A stretch of DNA of 37,998 nucleotides, taken from contig JASGLU010000011.1 of NCBI GenBank assembly GCA_030156825.1, forward strand, positions 1 through 37,998, in the 5' to 3' direction. Within the stretch, counting starts at the first letter, position 1. Every line of letters begins with the position of its first letter. This document shows, one piece after another, positions 7,415 to 31,832 of this stretch. The notes beneath the pieces are model-generated. The model had not been told where the DNA came from. It saw nothing but the letters and a program-made list of their open reading frames with translations, and made no database searches. This DNA comes from Candidatus Atribacteria bacterium (GTDB lineage: Bacteria; Atribacterota; Atribacteria; Atribacterales; JASGLU01). Both the position numbers and the translations under genes were made by a program.

Positions 7415-7972
7415 TCAAAATTTTGAATTTTTCCCCAAGTCTTTTAAGGAAAATCGAGCCACTTCGGCCTGAGAGGAAGCCAAAGGTTTTTCTTCTTCCC
7501 TGTTGGTTGAAGAAGAAAATTTGGGCTCTTCTGCCTTCCAATCCAAGCTATCAATAAAAGTTTGCAGCAGGGATTTAAACCGCATTCTGAAAATTTGATA
7601 TTTTTCCATCGTTTGTTGATAATCCTGCTCTATTTTAAGTTTTTCCTTTTCCGCTTCTTCTATAATTTTTTGGGCCTTAAGCTGGGCTGTTTGAATTACC
7701 ATCTGTGCTTCCCGCTTGGCCAGTTCTCTTTCTACTTCGTTTTGTTTTTGCCATTCTTCCATTTTACTCTCCAGTTGGTCCAGATATTTCTCTTTTTCTC
7801 TCAACCTTCTACTCAACTCGCGGTTCTCTTCCTGCAGTTTTGCCTGCTCCTTGTATAGGAGTTCCATCTGGTTGGCTATCTCCTCTAAAAATTCATCTAC
7901 TTCATCCGGGTTGTATCCTCTGAAAGAACGGCTAAATTCTGCATTCAAAATTTCTTCTACCCGAAAACTCAT
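7415..7972 (-). CDS. divIVA: DivIVA-family cell-division/polarity protein
   Basis: The 185-residue protein begins with the conserved DivIVA membrane-binding segment (EEILNAEFSRSFRGYNPDEV, DEFLEEI). A long heptad coiled coil (about residues 30-130) and a charged, low-complexity tail follow. DivIVA binds curved membranes at septa and poles and recruits division or growth factors. The start is set at the second of two adjacent ATG codons (7975 and 7972), behind AGGGGTGAGA; a frame extending to 8035 adds unrelated residues. The leader contains the left part of an R2 element (7989-8009). The gene follows the dcw cluster, as in other Firmicutes, but SepF, YlmG and YlmH genes are missing from between them. 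Confidence 0.93.
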   Translation of the reverse strand: MSFRVEEILNAEFSRSFRGYNPDEVDEFLEEIANQMELLYKEQAKLQEENRELSRRLREKEKYLDQLESKMEEWQKQNEVERELAKREAQMVIQTAQLKAQKIIEEAEKEKLKIEQDYQQTMEKYQIFRMRFKSLLQTFIDSLDWKAEEPKFSSSTNREEEKPLASSQAEVARFSLKDLGKNSKF

Positions 7973-7988
7973 CATTCTCACCCCTAAT

Positions 7989-8009
7989 CTAAGTTGCAAA
8001 TCTTTACCA
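7989..8009. repeat. R2 left-end fragment (copy d)
   Basis: CTAAGTTGCAAATCTTTACC matches the left end of R2 (CCAAGTTGCAGATTTTTACC) and then stops matching. The missing remainder may be the piece at 8222-8298, now 210 bp away. Confidence 0.6.
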
Positions 8010-8107
8010 TAAAACTCTCTCTGTTTATAGTACACCTACCCTGGAAATACACCAGGATAGCAGCCTACGGCGTAAAATTAAAAACTTAAAAAACGAAAAA
8101 AACTGAA

Positions 8108-8200
8108 AGGATAGACCACTATTGTTTCTCTAAGATTTATTATATTGAATTCCGTTTTCATTGTTATCTGGTACTGGCAAGCAGCATGGGCGTCTATCCT
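8108..8200. repeat. R1 inverted-repeat element, copy b
   Basis: This 93-bp copy has ends AGGATAGACC and CGTCTATCCT. It is oriented opposite to 4619-4708 and shares most of its interior. One terminal base pair has decayed (C in place of G). It is flanked by other repeat modules in a gene-free gap. Confidence 0.82.
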
Positions 8201-8221
8201 TATCTATCAGTCTTTTAATCT

Positions 8222-8298
8222 GGGTTACCCGAAAATTAGAATCCCCAAAAGAAAAGACCTGATATAGACTGATTTCTGGAACTTATGGTGCAACTTAG
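8222..8298. repeat. R2 element, right part (copy c)
   Basis: It matches R2 copies a and b from TTACC(C/T)GAAAAT through to TGCAACTTAGG but lacks the left terminal repeat. The right end lies directly against the proC stop codon (8300-8302), so it forms the 3' end of the dcw transcript. Confidence 0.72.
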
Positions 8299-8299
8299 G

Positions 8300-9097
8300 C
8301 TAAGTAGATAATTCTTTTGCCCTTTTGCGGGCAGCCTCTATTGCTTCCATCACTGCATTTCTAAAAGCCCTCTTTTCCAAAGCCTGAATCCCGGAAATAG
8401 TGGTTCCCCCCGGAGAGGCCACCTGGTTCTTAAATAAACCGGGGTGGATTCTCTTTTCCTTTAACAGGTAGGCTGTCCCTAAAACAGTCTGCAAAACTGC
8501 TTTTAAGCTTTTATCCCAAGGAATACCCACACCCACTCCCCCATCGGCCAAAGCTTCAATAAAAACTGACACCAAGCCAGGACCACTGCCAGAAAGAGCA
8601 GTAAGAAGGTCTAATTCTTCTTCCTTGGCTTCGAACACCCATCCCAGCGAAGACAATAAAAAAAGCAAATCTTCCTTATCTTCCGCTTCCATCTGCGAGA
8701 TAAAAGCGACTGCTATCACTCCCTCCCCCACTTCTACACAAAGGTTAGGCATAATTCTAACCAACTTACTTCGCCCAGGCAAAATATTTTGCAAAGTTTC
8801 ACCGGTGATCCCGGCAGCTAAAGAAATAAAGATAGCCGAAGAAAATTGGGGCAGAGAAGCAGCTGCCTCTTTTAAATCTTTGGGCTTTACCGCTAAAAAA
8901 ACATAACGGGGTTCAGAAGGCAGAGAAAAATCATTAACAACCTGGCCCTGCACTTCAAGTGCCAGCTGTTCGGCCCGCTCGGATATTACGTCGTAGAGCA
9001 GAAAATCAAATTTTTGATGCAATTTATCCCGATATAAACCCTTAACCAAAGCCGACCCCATATGTCCACAACCAATAAAAAGAATGCTATCTTTCAT
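8300..9097 (-). CDS. proC: Pyrroline-5-carboxylate reductase
   Basis: The 265-residue protein has an N-terminal Rossmann fold (ILFIGCGHMGSALVKGL), the substrate-side block LVRIMPNLCVEVGEGV, and the C-terminal P5CR signature (TALSGSGPGLVSVFIEALAD, then QVASPGGTTISGIQALE). It catalyses the last step of proline synthesis, reducing pyrroline-5-carboxylate with NAD(P)H. The start is ATG 9097 behind AAGGAG, its A being the last base of the yggS stop (TGATG); a TTG one codon earlier is less likely. A yggS-proC pairing is widespread in bacteria. Here the pair ends the dcw cluster. Confidence 0.95.
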   Translation of the reverse strand: MKDSILFIGCGHMGSALVKGLYRDKLHQKFDFLLYDVISERAEQLALEVQGQVVNDFSLPSEPRYVFLAVKPKDLKEAAASLPQFSSAIFISLAAGITGETLQNILPGRSKLVRIMPNLCVEVGEGVIAVAFISQMEAEDKEDLLFLLSSLGWVFEAKEEELDLLTALSGSGPGLVSVFIEALADGGVGVGIPWDKSLKAVLQTVLGTAYLLKEKRIHPGLFKNQVASPGGTTISGIQALEKRAFRNAVMEAIEAARKRAKELST

Positions 9098-9795
9098 CAA
9101 TAACTCCTTTCTCCAAAAATAGCCCGCCCTAAACGAATCATAGTAGCCCCTTCCTCAATCGCTATCTCATAATCGTTACTCATACCCATAGAAAGCTCGC
9201 TCAGTCCGACTGCAGGCATTTCCCGGTTAACCAGCTCTTTAATCTCTCTCAATCTTTTAAAAACTTTTCTAATTTTACTTTGGTCTGAGGTAAGGGGACC
9301 AATGACCATAAGTCCTCGAAGATCAAGATGAGACAATTGGTTCATCCTTTCTATTAAATCAAACAACTCTTCTTCCTTTATCCCTCCTTGAGTCTCTTTT
9401 CCAGTTAGATTGAGCTGCAACAAAACTGGCATTGATTTACCTAAAAGTTCGGCGTGGCGATCAACTGCTTCTGCCAGCTGCAAAGAGTCTAAAGAGTGAA
9501 TCCAATGAAAATAGTTTACCATCTTTTTTACCTTGTTGCGTTGAATCCGGCCGATAAAGTGCCAGTTTACAGGTCTATCTTTAAAAACCCCTATTTTACC
9601 TTCTGCTTCCTGCAGTCGATTCTCCCCCAGCTCTGAGATGCCTGCGTCCACCGCTTCTTTTATCTGCGGAGGAGAGACTCCCTTAGTTACCGCTATTAAC
9701 CGAACCTCCTCCGGTTTTCTTCCCCCTCGTCGACAAGCCAATGCCACCCTATTCCTGACCCGCTCCAAGTTTTCTCGAATTAAACTTTTCTCCAT
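9097..9795 (-). CDS. yggS: YggS-family PLP-binding homeostasis protein
   Basis: At 232 residues this is a standard YggS/PROSC (YlmE) protein: a single alanine-racemase-like TIM barrel with the PLP lysine in RLIAVTKG, then ELGENRLQEA, WHFIGRIQRNKV and SMGMSNDYEIAIEEGATMIR. It buffers free pyridoxal phosphate and has no known catalytic role. The start ATG lies 46 bases inside the end of the upstream radical SAM gene, so translation may be coupled. In many Firmicutes ylmE follows ftsZ directly; here a radical SAM gene stands between them. Confidence 0.94.
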   Translation of the reverse strand: MEKSLIRENLERVRNRVALACRRGGRKPEEVRLIAVTKGVSPPQIKEAVDAGISELGENRLQEAEGKIGVFKDRPVNWHFIGRIQRNKVKKMVNYFHWIHSLDSLQLAEAVDRHAELLGKSMPVLLQLNLTGKETQGGIKEEELFDLIERMNQLSHLDLRGLMVIGPLTSDQSKIRKVFKRLREIKELVNREMPAVGLSELSMGMSNDYEIAIEEGATMIRLGRAIFGERSY

Positions 9796-27987: not shown

Positions 27988-28728
27988 TTAAATAACAGTA
28001 TATCTTCCTTGGTAGTGAATTAGGGCTTTTTTAAGCTCTTCCCAGGTAGGAGCGGAGATAAAAAATTGGGTGGTAACCGAACCAATTTGGTCCAGAGAAT
28101 GAGCATCAGAAGAAGAAACAAAATAATATCCGGTCAGCGACCAGTATTTTTGAACAAAAGCCACCCGTGAGGAAGACGATACCTCTAAAACTTTAAAATC
28201 AAGTCCGGGTGGGAGGAAACCCAAATTCTGAAGTAAACTGTAAGCTTTTCTATCTACATGGGCGGGAATTACCAGTCCACCACAGCCTCTGGCCTTTTTG
28301 GTTACAGTCTCAATACTTACTTGCAGGGGATAAGTCAGGAGATTAGATTTTTTTTCTATAATCTTCCCCTCTTCATCTACCACCCACTCTTCTCCCCATA
28401 TATTCTGGTTTAGAGGCACAGTCGGGAGAAATTGCTGGATAAATTGACCGAATTCTGTCAAATTAGTCAGAGTAGGGAAAAAACAGAGCAGGTGAACTTC
28501 CTCCTGGGTTTCCACTTCTACTCCAGGGATTACCCATATCCCAAATTTTTTTCCTAAAGACAAAAGAGGAGGAACGTTCTGCCAAGCATTATGGTCGGTA
28601 AGGGCTATGATATCAATTCCCTTCTCCAGTGCTTCCAAAATAATGCAGGCCGGTAACATATCTCTTTCCGCACAGGGAGAGAGAACACTGTGCAAATGAA
28701 GGTCGGCAATATATCTCCGATTAGCCAT
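27988..28728 (-). CDS. PHP-domain metal-dependent phosphoesterase
   Basis: The 246-residue protein has the PHP domain metal ligands: IADLHLHSVLSPCAERDM (first motif), ALTDHNAW, GVEVET, VIPAHVDR and SSSDAHSLDQIG. PHP domains hydrolyse phosphoesters using two or three metals; the substrate here is unknown. A stand-alone PHP protein of this size is a recurring neighbour of sensory [FeFe]-hydrogenase genes with DRTGG proteins in Clostridia and Thermotogae, as I recall, and all these partners are upstream here. It overlaps the DRTGG gene by eight bases and ends the operon. Confidence 0.9.
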   Translation of the reverse strand: MANRRYIADLHLHSVLSPCAERDMLPACIILEALEKGIDIIALTDHNAWQNVPPLLSLGKKFGIWVIPGVEVETQEEVHLLCFFPTLTNLTEFGQFIQQFLPTVPLNQNIWGEEWVVDEEGKIIEKKSNLLTYPLQVSIETVTKKARGCGGLVIPAHVDRKAYSLLQNLGFLPPGLDFKVLEVSSSSRVAFVQKYWSLTGYYFVSSSDAHSLDQIGSVTTQFFISAPTWEELKKALIHYQGRYTVI

Positions 28729-29074
28729 CCCTCTTAGTTCCGGGAATTCCCAAGCCAGAAAGGACAGATACCGCTTGATAGCTAGTGAAATGGGTTCTAA
28801 TAACGGTAATTTTTTCCGCCCGAGCTCGCTCCAGAGTATCGTTTTCCACTTCTGCCCAATTGGTTATAACTACACAAGGGATGCCTACTAAAGTGGCCAC
28901 TGCTATAACATTGGGGTGAGACTGAATAGTTATCCAAACACTCCCATCATGGGCATTACCCATTACATCGCTCAGTAAATCCCCACAATAGCCACCAGTT
29001 AGTTCTGCTTCCATTTCTCCAGCGGCCAGCACTTCAGCTTGAAGGGGAGCTATGATTTCATTGACTTTCAACAT
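28721..29074 (-). CDS. DRTGG-domain protein 1
   Basis: The 117-residue single-domain protein contains a DRTGG-type fold: EVLAAGEMEAELTGGYCGDL followed by LSDVMGNAHDGSVWITIQS and a second half (VAVATLVGIPCVVITNW). DRTGG domains occur in CBS-pyrophosphatases and phosphotransacetylases and probably bind a ligand; no enzymatic role is known for the stand-alone form. A second, divergent copy (30865-31215) flanks the hydrogenase homologue on the other side. Start ATG with GGAG seven bases upstream; it overlaps the end of the hydrogenase-like gene by 17 bases. Confidence 0.85.
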   Translation of the reverse strand: MLKVNEIIAPLQAEVLAAGEMEAELTGGYCGDLLSDVMGNAHDGSVWITIQSHPNVIAVATLVGIPCVVITNWAEVENDTLERARAEKITVIRTHFTSYQAVSVLSGLGIPGTKRDG

Positions 29075-30407
29075 TTTCTTTCTCCTTTTCCTCCTTGGGA
29101 GACATAGTTTGAGGCACTCTCTTGGCCAACTCGTAAATTTCCCTCGCTTTTTTCAAAAGTTGGTCACGCAGGAGAAAAGGACAGTCTATCTCCTGGGCTT
29201 TCCCCAAAATAACGTCTTCTGCCAGGGCTCGACAGGTGGGGGATCCACAAGCACCACAATCAAGTCCCGGTAGTTCCTCTAAAAACTTTTCAATCCTCTG
29301 ATACTTTTCCAGTGCCTTTTTAAAGTCTGAGTCTAACTTCAAAACTTCTCGCACCTGATAAGGTCGGGCTCGAGTAAAAACCTGTTTTATCCTCCATTCA
29401 TCCAAGTCCTGCTGAGAAATAGGGTGAAAAGTACCATACCTCTTAACCAAATTATTCACACTAACTTTAGCGATAAAAGGATTTTGTACAGCCAGCACCC
29501 CACCAATACAACCGCCAATACAAGCTTGGGCCTCACAATAGGTTACATTTTTAAGCTCACCCAGCTCGATTTTTTCTAAGACGGAAATCACCTGATGGAT
29601 ACCGTCAACTGCCATGTATTCCCCCTCACAAAGTGATTCCTGTTCTCCTCCAGAACGCCCCCAACCAATTCCTTTCCAGCTGGAAAGTTGAATGTCAGAC
29701 CGATCGGGTAGCTGATCAATTGAATTGATTAAGCGAGCGTAAACAGAGGAAATAGATATGGCTCCATCAATTCGACTCAAGTTCTGTTCGCTCTGGCGAA
29801 CTTCGGTTACTTTTGCCGGGCAAGGAGTAATAAAAAATAACCCTATTTCCTCGGGAGCAAAACCTTTTCGCATTGCCTCTAACCGGGCAATTTTGGATGC
29901 CACCCCCAGTGGAGATTCCAGAGGAAGAAGGTTGTCCAAAAGAGAGGGGAATTTTACTTCTATCAATCTTACCACTGCCGGGCAAGCTGAAGAAATAACC
30001 GGCCGGGTAATTTTTTTCTGACTTAAAAAGCGGTTAATTTCTTCCGCCAGTATCTCTGCCCCTCTTGCCACTTCAAATACTTGATCAAAACCTAAAGACA
30101 GCAGCCCGTTTAACATCTTTCCCAAGGGAGTATTTACCCTAAACTGAGCGTAAAAAGCAGGAGCAGGAAGGGCAATATTATAGCTAAATCTTTCCAGAGC
30201 CACCAGTGGATCAGTGCGAGCATATTTAGCATGGTTAGGGCAGGTCCTTATGCATTCCCCACAATCAATGCATCTTTCTTCATCAATCTGCGCCTTGCTG
30301 CCTTTCACTCGGATGGCTTCAGTCGGGCACTTTCTAATACAATGAGTACATCCTTTACACTTTTCCTCATCTAAGCGAACTGAGTGAAACCGAGCTTCCT
30401 GGTTCAT
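29058..30407 (-). CDS. Putative sensory [FeFe]-hydrogenase (HydS-like)
   Basis: This 449-residue protein has two N-terminal 4Fe-4S motifs (Cys17-Cys27 and Cys46-Cys56), an [FeFe]-hydrogenase catalytic domain (about 75-350) and a C-terminal iron-sulfur motif (381-413, GLDCGACGSPTCRALAED). H-cluster ligands are kept: Cys142 (ISSACPAVV), the Cys of ITPCPAKVTE, and both Cys of EAQACIGGCIGG. The proton-transfer Cys is replaced by Ala141, and the two methionines near the cluster are changed to Thr and Gln. Such changes, and the DRTGG, ATPase and PHP neighbours, mark putative sensory hydrogenases rather than bulk H2 producers. No PAS domain is fused. The start ATG overlaps the upstream stop. Confidence 0.86.
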   Translation of the reverse strand: MNQEARFHSVRLDEEKCKGCTHCIRKCPTEAIRVKGSKAQIDEERCIDCGECIRTCPNHAKYARTDPLVALERFSYNIALPAPAFYAQFRVNTPLGKMLNGLLSLGFDQVFEVARGAEILAEEINRFLSQKKITRPVISSACPAVVRLIEVKFPSLLDNLLPLESPLGVASKIARLEAMRKGFAPEEIGLFFITPCPAKVTEVRQSEQNLSRIDGAISISSVYARLINSIDQLPDRSDIQLSSWKGIGWGRSGGEQESLCEGEYMAVDGIHQVISVLEKIELGELKNVTYCEAQACIGGCIGGVLAVQNPFIAKVSVNNLVKRYGTFHPISQQDLDEWRIKQVFTRARPYQVREVLKLDSDFKKALEKYQRIEKFLEELPGLDCGACGSPTCRALAEDVILGKAQEIDCPFLLRDQLLKKAREIYELAKRVPQTMSPKEEKEKENVESQ

Positions 30408-30862
30408 GAAGATTTCCCACCCTTAGAAGGTTCAAGAAAAAACTCCATTTCCACCTTAGTTCCTTTCCCCATCTCGGTACTGATCTGCAAACGGTCAGAA
30501 CACTTTTTCATATTAGATAAACCATATCCTGCTCCAAACCCCATTTCTCTAATATGGGGAGGGGCGGTAGAATAACCTTCCTGAAAAGCTAATTCTAAAT
30601 CTGGAATCCCCGGTCCTTCATCGTCGATCACCACATATACCCGATCCGGATAAATCTCAGTTAGAAAAACTCCTTGATAGGCATGGATAACTACGTTCAT
30701 TTCGGCTTCATAAACAGCGATAACTACCCGCCGATTAAAGGCCGGTGAAAAACCAGCTTGTTGTAAAATCTTTTTAACCTCGCTCGAAATATCACCTGCG
30801 CTTTGAAAATCTCCTCCGCTTATTTTTCGCTCAATCTTAATCAAAGGAGTATTATGAGCCAT
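30404..30862 (-). CDS. Anti-sigma-factor-like HATPase (RsbT/RsbW/SpoIIAB type)
   Basis: The 152-residue protein consists of one GHKL ATPase domain. The N-box is VYEAEMNVVIHAY, the next motif is IDDEGPGIPDL, and the lid and second glycine motif is FGAGYGLSNMKKCSDRL. There is no histidine phosphorylation domain, so it resembles serine kinase anti-sigma factors and RsbT-like switch kinases. In this setting it may relay the state of the hydrogenase sensor (inference); no sigma factor or antagonist gene is nearby. It lies two bases after DRTGG protein 2, and its stop overlaps the hydrogenase-like start. Confidence 0.88.
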   Translation of the reverse strand: MAHNTPLIKIERKISGGDFQSAGDISSEVKKILQQAGFSPAFNRRVVIAVYEAEMNVVIHAYQGVFLTEIYPDRVYVVIDDEGPGIPDLELAFQEGYSTAPPHIREMGFGAGYGLSNMKKCSDRLQISTEMGKGTKVEMEFFLEPSKGGKSS

Positions 30863-30864
30863 GA

Positions 30865-31215
30865 TTAAGATTCGCTACATCCTCTCAACCCTTTAAGATA
30901 CAAACGTCCACAGGATTCGTACATGGGGAGAGGGGTAGCCAAAAGCGGGATTTTTTTCAAAGAAGCCAACTCTACTGTCGAGGCATCAGGCTTCTTCCCC
31001 CTAACAAATACAATGGCAATTAAGTCGCTCATCTCGGCCGTTCGGATAACTTGAGAGTTAGTAAGACCGGTTAGCAGTAAAGAGTTTTCTTTAGTAAAAG
31101 CTAAAACATCACTCAACAGATCACTTCCACAAGCAGAAGAAGGTTCCCTATCCAACAAATCTTCACCAGTAAGTACCGTTGCTTCTAAAATATCTCTAAT
31201 TTCTCGCAAATTCAC
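30865..31215 (-). CDS. DRTGG-domain protein 2
   Basis: The 116-residue protein follows the same plan as DRTGG protein 1: LEATVLTGEDLLDREPSSAC, then GSDLLSDVLAFTKENSLLLTGL, then a Rossmann-like half ending LIAIVFVRGKKPDASTVELA. The two copies are clearly diverged from each other, and CGSDLLSDVL corresponds to CGDLLSDVM in the other. The ligand and function are unknown. The start is GTG with GGAGG ten bases upstream. It is followed by the HATPase gene after two bases. Confidence 0.82.
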   Translation of the reverse strand: MNLREIRDILEATVLTGEDLLDREPSSACGSDLLSDVLAFTKENSLLLTGLTNSQVIRTAEMSDLIAIVFVRGKKPDASTVELASLKKIPLLATPLPMYESCGRLYLKGLRGCSES

Positions 31216-31229
31216 TTTTAATTTTCCTC

Positions 31230-31832
31230 CTATTGACCAACAAAGACTTCAATGCCCTCATTTTTTAGTTTCTGAGCCGCCTGCTGGGCTTCGGCTTGTG
31301 AAGAAAAACCATAAATGCGTACCCGGTACAAACCTGAAACTGGCTCTGAAACCGCCGAAAAGCCTAATTCTCGGAGAGTATTAACCATTCGCTCAGCATT
31401 TTCTGAGCGAGAAAATGCCCCCGCTTGCACATAATATGTACCTTCAGAAGATGGAGGAGGACTGGTCGGCTGAGGGGGCGAAGCCACTTGAGGAGGAGAA
31501 GCAGATTTAGCCGGTTCCTCTACTTGGGGAACAACCTGGGCTGGAGGTGGAGGCTCTACCTCCGCTTGGGGAGTTATCTCTGCCGGAGGAGCCATTTCTT
31601 CTTCCAAGAATAGCTTCTCCAATTCACTTCTTAACTGGCTTTCCTCTTCCGAAAGGGAAAATTCGGCTTCAAGTGCCCTCTCTTCTGAGGGAAAAATCCC
31701 AGTTAATAGAAATTGAGTATACGCGTCAAGGTCGCCCCTGGCAGTAAAAAAGGCAAAAACAACCACTACCAATCCCCCGGCTAATAAAATCAATATTTCT
31801 ATTAAATTTTTATTACGAAAAAGAGTAATCAT
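31230..31832 (-). CDS. SPOR-domain membrane protein
   Basis: The 200-residue protein has an N-terminal membrane anchor (about 9-30), an acidic stretch (50-80), a proline-rich linker (80-130) and a C-terminal SPOR domain (about 130-200, GTYYVQAGAFSRSENAERMV, GLYRVRIYGFSSQAEAQQAA). SPOR domains bind denuded glycan at septa, so it probably acts outside the membrane at division sites or other sites of wall remodelling. The linker length and topology fit that. Its position between valS and the hydrogenase module gives no functional clue. The start ATG overlaps the valS stop as ATGA. Confidence 0.87.
   Translation of the reverse strand: MITLFRNKNLIEILILLAGGLVVVVFAFFTARGDLDAYTQFLLTGIFPSEERALEAEFSLSEEESQLRSELEKLFLEEEMAPPAEITPQAEVEPPPPAQVVPQVEEPAKSASPPQVASPPQPTSPPPSSEGTYYVQAGAFSRSENAERMVNTLRELGFSAVSEPVSGLYRVRIYGFSSQAEAQQAAQKLKNEGIEVFVGQ

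Follow-up and report, generated by a model that had tools for sequence, protein, structure and literature searches.

Group D [FeFe]-hydrogenases are putative H2 sensors that have been the subject of in vitro work since 2020. Members of this type, D(M2e), have been listed near kinases and bifurcating hydrogenases (Carere and colleagues, PMC3561251), and the gene for TamHydS of Thermoanaerobacter mathranii is flanked by genes for an HATPase and an AraC regulator (Land and colleagues, PMC8163306). TamHydS reacts with H2 and its secondary structure shifts, its C-terminal cluster being unresponsive to the gas (PMC8163306; PMC13104023). The second of these, dated April 2026, calls the identification of group D signalling partners critical (PMC13104023). 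For the phylum Atribacterota, a previous study recorded [FeFe]-hydrogenases of groups A3 and C only (PMC11227167). Here we describe HydS, a homologue assigned to group D and encoded in a 37,998-nucleotide stretch of a Candidatus Atribacteria genome (order Atribacterales; assembly GCA_030156825.1, contig JASGLU010000011.1, positions 1 to 37,998; hereafter the window). HydS lies in a cassette whose other genes, in conserved order, encode four candidate partners: two stand-alone DRTGG proteins, a switch-type ATPase/kinase (HATP) and a PHP-family phosphoesterase. We tentatively propose that the five proteins form a conserved cytoplasmic module signalling H2 or redox state, in which HydS would act on HATP and HATP on the DRTGG proteins, PHP would counteract the latter step, with the handling of H2, ferredoxin and NADH as the output.

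The cassette consists of five complete co-directional genes on the minus strand, reading from 31215 to 27988, and the Pfam assignments of all five products exceed the gathering cut-offs (E, expectation value):

DRTGG-a, 30865..31215, minus strand: stand-alone DRTGG protein, 116 amino acids, GTG start (PF07085, E 1.2e-7)
HATP, 30404..30862, minus strand: SpoIIAB/RsbW-type switch ATPase/kinase, 152 amino acids (PF13581, HATPase_c_2, E 5.5e-11)
HydS, 29058..30407, minus strand: [FeFe]-hydrogenase homologue, 449 amino acids (PF02906, Fe_hyd_lg_C, E 3.4e-33; Fer4; PF04060, FeS)
DRTGG-b, 28721..29074, minus strand: second stand-alone DRTGG protein, 117 amino acids (PF07085, E 3.6e-7)
PHP, 27988..28728, minus strand: single-domain PHP-family metallophosphoesterase, 246 amino acids (PF02811 and PF13263, PHP_C)
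SPOR-domain protein, 31230..31832, minus strand: directly upstream of DRTGG-a (PF05036, E 1.7e-19)

HydS and the conservation of its cassette

HydS is composed of two N-terminal 4Fe-4S motifs, an H-domain and a C-terminal Cx2Cx4Cx16C motif, and has no PAS domain. The first-pass annotation of the window, made by a model from the sequence, had described a putative sensory hydrogenase that keeps the four H-cluster cysteines, carries Ala141 in place of the proton-transfer Cys and has both cluster-side methionines changed. Each of these points stands: the cysteines are C142, C196, C296 and C300, Ala141 occupies the position of C299 in the published numbering, and Thr194 and Gln294 occupy those of M353 and M497 of CpI. 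TamHydS (PMC8163306, PMC10407848, PMC13104023) shares the domain layout, the Cx2Cx4Cx16C motif, the lack of a PAS domain, Ala for C299, a hydroxyl residue for M353, an S/E/D/E proton path (PMC10407848) and a nearby HATPase gene, and differs at the M497 position, where it has Leu and HydS has Gln. The group D proton path S249/E252/D265/E289 of TamHydS corresponds to S252/E255/D268/E292 in HydS, the residue numbers being matched by motif and offset rather than by alignment of the TamHydS sequence.

Profile searches place HydS outside groups A and B, and phylogeny places it outside groups A, B and C; the position inside catalytic group A that would have overturned the first-pass reading is thus not observed. 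HydS scores 102.5 bits against the NCBIfam group A model TIGR02512 (cut-off 405.95) and 150.2 bits against the group B model TIGR04105 (cut-off 450); among the controls, group A sequences pass the former, and group B sequences pass the latter in two cases out of four. In a tree of 63 sequences, groups A, B, C and the cassette HydS proteins form separate clades, with Shimodaira-Hasegawa-like approximate likelihood ratio test (SH-aLRT) supports of 99, 95, 97 and 100, respectively. The cassette clade, of 30 rows, is sister to the PAS-bearing group C (SH-aLRT 92), and the window HydS falls within an Atribacterota subclade (SH-aLRT 100). A PAS domain is found in the group C controls, unlike in HydS. 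Altogether, HydS is classed as a group D (M2e) [FeFe]-hydrogenase homologue, an assignment that rests on the cassette relatives and the published residues, TamHydS itself not being a member of the tree.

The cassette is conserved in the host order. An ortholog of HydS is present in all 24 sampled Atribacterales genomes (68-74% identity), while none was found at E 1e-40 in 25 sampled genomes from the rest of the phylum, and the order clpX-valS-SPOR-DRTGG-HATP-HydS-DRTGG-PHP-mraZ-rsmH is fixed in every Atribacterales contig that is long enough. Beyond the phylum, Clostridia have the same five-gene order, and Desulfofundulus, Coprothermobacter and one spirochaete have parts of it. Because the complete order recurs in 77 of 88 loci from several phyla, a set in which some Atribacterota contigs are counted twice, it is not due to chance; contig ends account for most of the misses.

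Co-inheritance was assessed in 148 genomes drawn evenly from the class Clostridia. HydS is detected in 72 of them, HATP in 71, DRTGG-a in 71 and PHP in 70; 68 genomes have all four families, nearly always as a single cluster, and 73 have any of them, with Fisher p values for co-occurrence of 1e-38 to 1e-40, uncorrected for shared ancestry. The conserved neighbourhood anticipated in the first-pass annotation is thus borne out in both groups. HydS scores split into two sets, at least 446 bits (the 72 genomes, group D) versus at most 224 bits, and in each of the 68 genomes that carry both on one contig no more than 1 kb separates HATP from HydS. Gaps in HATP or DRTGG-a among the HydS genomes were traced to contig ends, and one genome (G109) has no PHP match. 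HydS and HATP show the highest distance correlation of ten family pairs (0.76), a weak line of evidence since the value has no species-tree baseline. In the split cassettes of G154, G182 and G093, DRTGG-b and PHP remain paired. A DRTGG-a/HATP pair lacking HydS occurs in one genome, at locus L167 (1912-2764), between a CoA-disulfide-reductase-like gene and an MsrA/MsrB-like gene; it is possible that this pair is a thiol-stress version of the core DRTGG-a/HATP pair.

In the window, the genes are closely spaced. DRTGG-a begins 14 nucleotides after the SPOR gene and is separated from HATP by 2 nucleotides, and the remaining junctions are overlaps of 4 (HATP/HydS), 17 (HydS/DRTGG-b) and 8 nucleotides (DRTGG-b/PHP). 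The first-pass annotation had placed five tightly packed genes at 28721-31215: the five genes and their packing (gaps of at most 2 nucleotides, or overlaps) stand, but the PHP gene lies outside that interval. A promoter and terminator search across the region returned fewer sites than shuffled sequence and none above chance inside the cassette, in line with the earlier view of an unbroken module. The upstream order tig-clpP-clpX-valS-SPOR was likewise upheld, and the SPOR gene overlaps valS. Approximately 330 nucleotides downstream of PHP come mraZ, then rsmH and the rest of the dcw (division and cell wall) cluster.

This setting differs from that of TamHydS, which is described as having a bifurcating hydrogenase downstream and an AraC regulator next to it, whereas the window HydS lies between valS-SPOR and mraZ; no AraC regulator was seen in the window. 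Outside Atribacterota, 55 loci have enough flanking sequence for comparison. HydABC or Rnf genes lie downstream in 25 of these, a divergent hydrogenase operon lies upstream in 3, and 27 have neither in range, 2 of which have HydABC farther along. Rnf genes lie 3′ of the cassette in five loci, with a complete operon in genome G135 (locus L188, 11033-15938, same strand, after the cassette) and Rnf genes likewise in L117, L178, L195 and L197. A DRTGG-a copy in G127 (L168) had seemed to lie beside HydA genes, a label that proved unreliable: the open reading frames of at least 100 amino acids there are not hydrogenases. Some loci echo the Atribacterota order (L182, L184, L186, L187, L192, L196 and L180), in that several Clostridia have a SPOR gene 12-43 nucleotides upstream of DRTGG-a and one has valS 12 nucleotides upstream. 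The first-pass annotation had linked the module to protein quality control. As a general feature this link is not supported: the clpX-valS-SPOR-cassette-mraZ order is constant within Atribacterota alone, and most Clostridia cassettes adjoin HydABC/Rnf or nothing recognisable. The clp/valS setting is therefore one of several, and we take the link to be positional rather than functional.

A candidate signalling chain and its alternatives

The chain set out here is inferred throughout: the contacts between the proteins, the phosphorylation and where it occurs, the part played by PHP, and the output. HydS would serve as the input: its conformation would change when it binds H2 or when its clusters are loaded with electrons, and this change would alter the activity of the adjoining switch kinase HATP. 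On the model of the RsbW and SpoIIAB kinases, which act on STAS partners, HATP would phosphorylate the DRTGG proteins, most likely at the serine of a DxxS motif (S35 in DRTGG-a, S34 in DRTGG-b), and PHP would be the opposing phosphoesterase. The output would be control of the machinery that balances H2, ferredoxin and NADH, often the neighbouring HydABC or Rnf.

The proposed enzymes keep their kinase and metal-site residues. HATP carries the N, G1 and G2 boxes, with both the general-base Glu and the Mg-binding Asn in place, and Y45, E46, E48, N50, DxGxG, GFGAG.GL and GT are invariant in 35 aligned sequences (alignment A3 numbering). The top PDB match of its profile is the anti-sigma F factor SpoIIAB (E 2e-12), but HATP scores below the equivalog cut-offs (TIGR01925, 55.1 versus 135 bits; NF003144, 29.0 versus 145 bits), and its own group scores approximately 200 bits where other SpoIIAB-like proteins of the same genomes reach at most 60. 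Its sequence thus places HATP in the SpoIIAB/RsbW superfamily, as neither SpoIIAB nor RsbW itself. PHP has a complete metal site (HxH, DHN, E, H and DAH residues), its ligand positions HxH, DH, E, H, H, D and H are at least 90% conserved, and C19 is invariant (alignment A4); its nearest PDB relatives are EndoQ and other PHP phosphoesterases. Because the HATP boxes and the PHP metal ligands are complete and conserved, a kinase-to-phosphoesterase chain appears plausible.

The presumed acceptors are conserved as well. D32, S35 and D36, among other residues, are invariant in DRTGG-a, and C102 is nearly so (alignment A1); in DRTGG-b, D31, S34, N54 and A83 are invariant (alignment A2 numbering). The predicted models have high predicted local distance difference test (pLDDT) values of 96 and 97.5, respectively, and in both cases the best Foldseek match in the PDB is the archaeal DRTGG protein 2ioj (E 1.5e-7 and 2.3e-7), followed for DRTGG-a by the DRTGG domain of a CBS-pyrophosphatase and by HPr kinase/phosphatase. 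The invariant DxxS motif is common to DRTGG-a and DRTGG-b, and 2ioj has GAMSP at this place.

Several observations weigh against the proposed chain. A Pfam scan of the cassette found no gene for a STAS-domain protein, the expected substrate of a SpoIIAB/RsbW-type kinase, and there is no sigma factor or DNA-binding protein among the cassette genes. The conserved serine stands at a helix start in both DRTGG models and may be just a helix cap. PHP is missing from some cassettes (Desulfofundulus/Desulfovirgula L071, L072 and L074, and G109) and is therefore not essential, and the spirochaete cassette L115 has neither DRTGG-b nor PHP. Searches for the maturases HydF (TIGR03918) and HydG (TIGR03955) found neither above cut-off in 14 of the 72 cassette-bearing Clostridia genomes, among them G135, a single contig of 2449552 bases. 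Finally, a divergent HydS subgroup (G092, G094, G126, G128, G155, G168, G181, G183 and G205; L185, L196, L195, L184, L187, L177, L197, L186 and L182) has Gln or Ala at the proton-path position E255.

The last two points bear on the nature of the input. HydS could use its Fe-S clusters to report the redox state of ferredoxin or thiols instead of H2 as such; some lineages would have lost the H-cluster or would not require it, and the remainder of the chain would operate as proposed. This version, which we regard as unlikely though deserving of serious weight, would account for the genomes without detected maturases and for the nine-member subgroup, in which Ala141 is also replaced (by Asp, Asn, Ser, Thr or Phe), all Fe-S cysteines are kept, and five of the nine genomes lack HydF and HydG, these loci having been chosen by score and HydF status. 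It would also fit the presence of Rnf, a ferredoxin:NAD oxidoreductase, 3′ of the cassette in five loci. The missing maturases together with the lost proton-path Glu indicate that H2 need not be the input everywhere. However, even the divergent subgroup keeps all four H-cluster cysteines, and TamHydS binds and turns over H2 (PMC8163306). Group A hydrogenases whose H-cluster motifs are intact occur in most of the 14 maturase-negative genomes. Such hydrogenases are also present in several HydF-less genomes that are fragmented drafts, where a maturase locus may have been missed. Incomplete drafts may account for some of the gap, and the maturase-negative genomes would be explained by loci that escaped detection or by a maturation route not yet recognised. 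The window HydS has the group D residues. HydG is found in the same genome, so that the H-cluster can probably be made there. This genome encodes three other [FeFe]-hydrogenases, and H2 accumulation inhibits the growth of a cultured relative, Atribacter laminatus (PMC7736352).

It is less likely still that the cassette operates through a small-molecule signal, for example a nucleotide, which PHP and the DRTGG proteins would synthesise or degrade and which the DRTGG domain would sense, in place of a protein phosphorylation cycle. DRTGG domains do occur in nucleotide-regulated CBS-pyrophosphatases, and nucleases and nucleotide phosphatases are found among the relatives of PHP. In CBS-pyrophosphatases, however, it is the CBS domains that bind the nucleotide; the cassette DRTGG proteins carry DxxS where 2ioj has GAMSP, and the core of DRTGG-a, HATP and HydS exists without PHP. 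The chance is smaller again that HATP is an anti-sigma factor holding a sigma factor, with the DRTGG proteins as anti-anti-sigma factors and direct control of transcription: the nearest sequences to HATP are SpoIIAB and RsbW, both of which are kinases and anti-sigma factors, but the cassette has no sigma factor or STAS gene, HATP forms a separate group, and RsbT-type relatives are not known to bind sigma factors. That the cassette serves the adjacent clp/valS quality control or cell division genes is highly improbable, since the fixed clpX-valS-SPOR-cassette-mraZ order of all sufficiently long Atribacterales loci, and the SPOR or single valS gene directly upstream in some Clostridia, are set against a majority of Clostridia loci with no clp or valS nearby, about half having HydABC or Rnf, and essential-gene neighbourhoods are stable for non-functional reasons too.

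Comparison with known regulatory systems

The hydrogenase type and its proximity to kinases were already known; the widely conserved five-part module is apparently undescribed. The descriptions of TamHydS, in their available portions, mention no DRTGG or PHP partners, and a literature search that reached a minority of subscription journals found no paper on such partners of a hydrogenase. The cassette is found in every sampled genome of the host Atribacterota order and in roughly half of those sampled from Clostridia, and the named partners are co-inherited, so that pull-downs and kinase assays can be designed directly. If true, the proposed chain would account for the way in which hydrogenase and Rnf activity is tuned to H2 pressure in many fermenting anaerobes, and it would assign DRTGG and PHP proteins to signalling.

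Among other sensory hydrogenases, TmHydS of Thermotoga maritima, a PAS-bearing member of group C, resembles HydS in its putative sensory function and its accessory clusters, group C being the sister clade in our tree. Group C proteins have a PAS domain and, here, a SpoIIE-type phosphatase; group D has neither. On contig C96 (L053, 7641-15241), the window's genome has a single operon in which a group C PAS hydrogenase (7934-9646) precedes a SpoIIE-type phosphatase and HydCBA, which is a second, different sensory hydrogenase system. In G128, an 881-amino-acid group C-like hydrogenase (L243, 946-3588) has a sigma-54-activator-like C-terminus with a DNA-binding end.

The regulatory [NiFe]-hydrogenase HoxBC with HoxJ is similar to our proposal in that an H2-binding protein feeds a kinase, and it differs in its metal centre, its true histidine kinase and its response regulator, none of which is found in the cassette (background in part from PMC8163306). 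The RsbRST stressosome and the SpoIIAB/SpoIIAA switches would share the logic proposed here, namely a GHKL-type Ser/Thr kinase, small acceptors and an opposing phosphatase. Compared with these systems, the cassette would have DRTGG in place of STAS proteins, PHP in place of PP2C and a hydrogenase as the input, the phosphorylation being putative. That it represents a new partner-switch class for HydABC/Rnf redox control in Clostridia and Atribacterota, its SpoIIAB-type kinase being driven by an [FeFe]-hydrogenase, is a doubtful but not negligible prospect.

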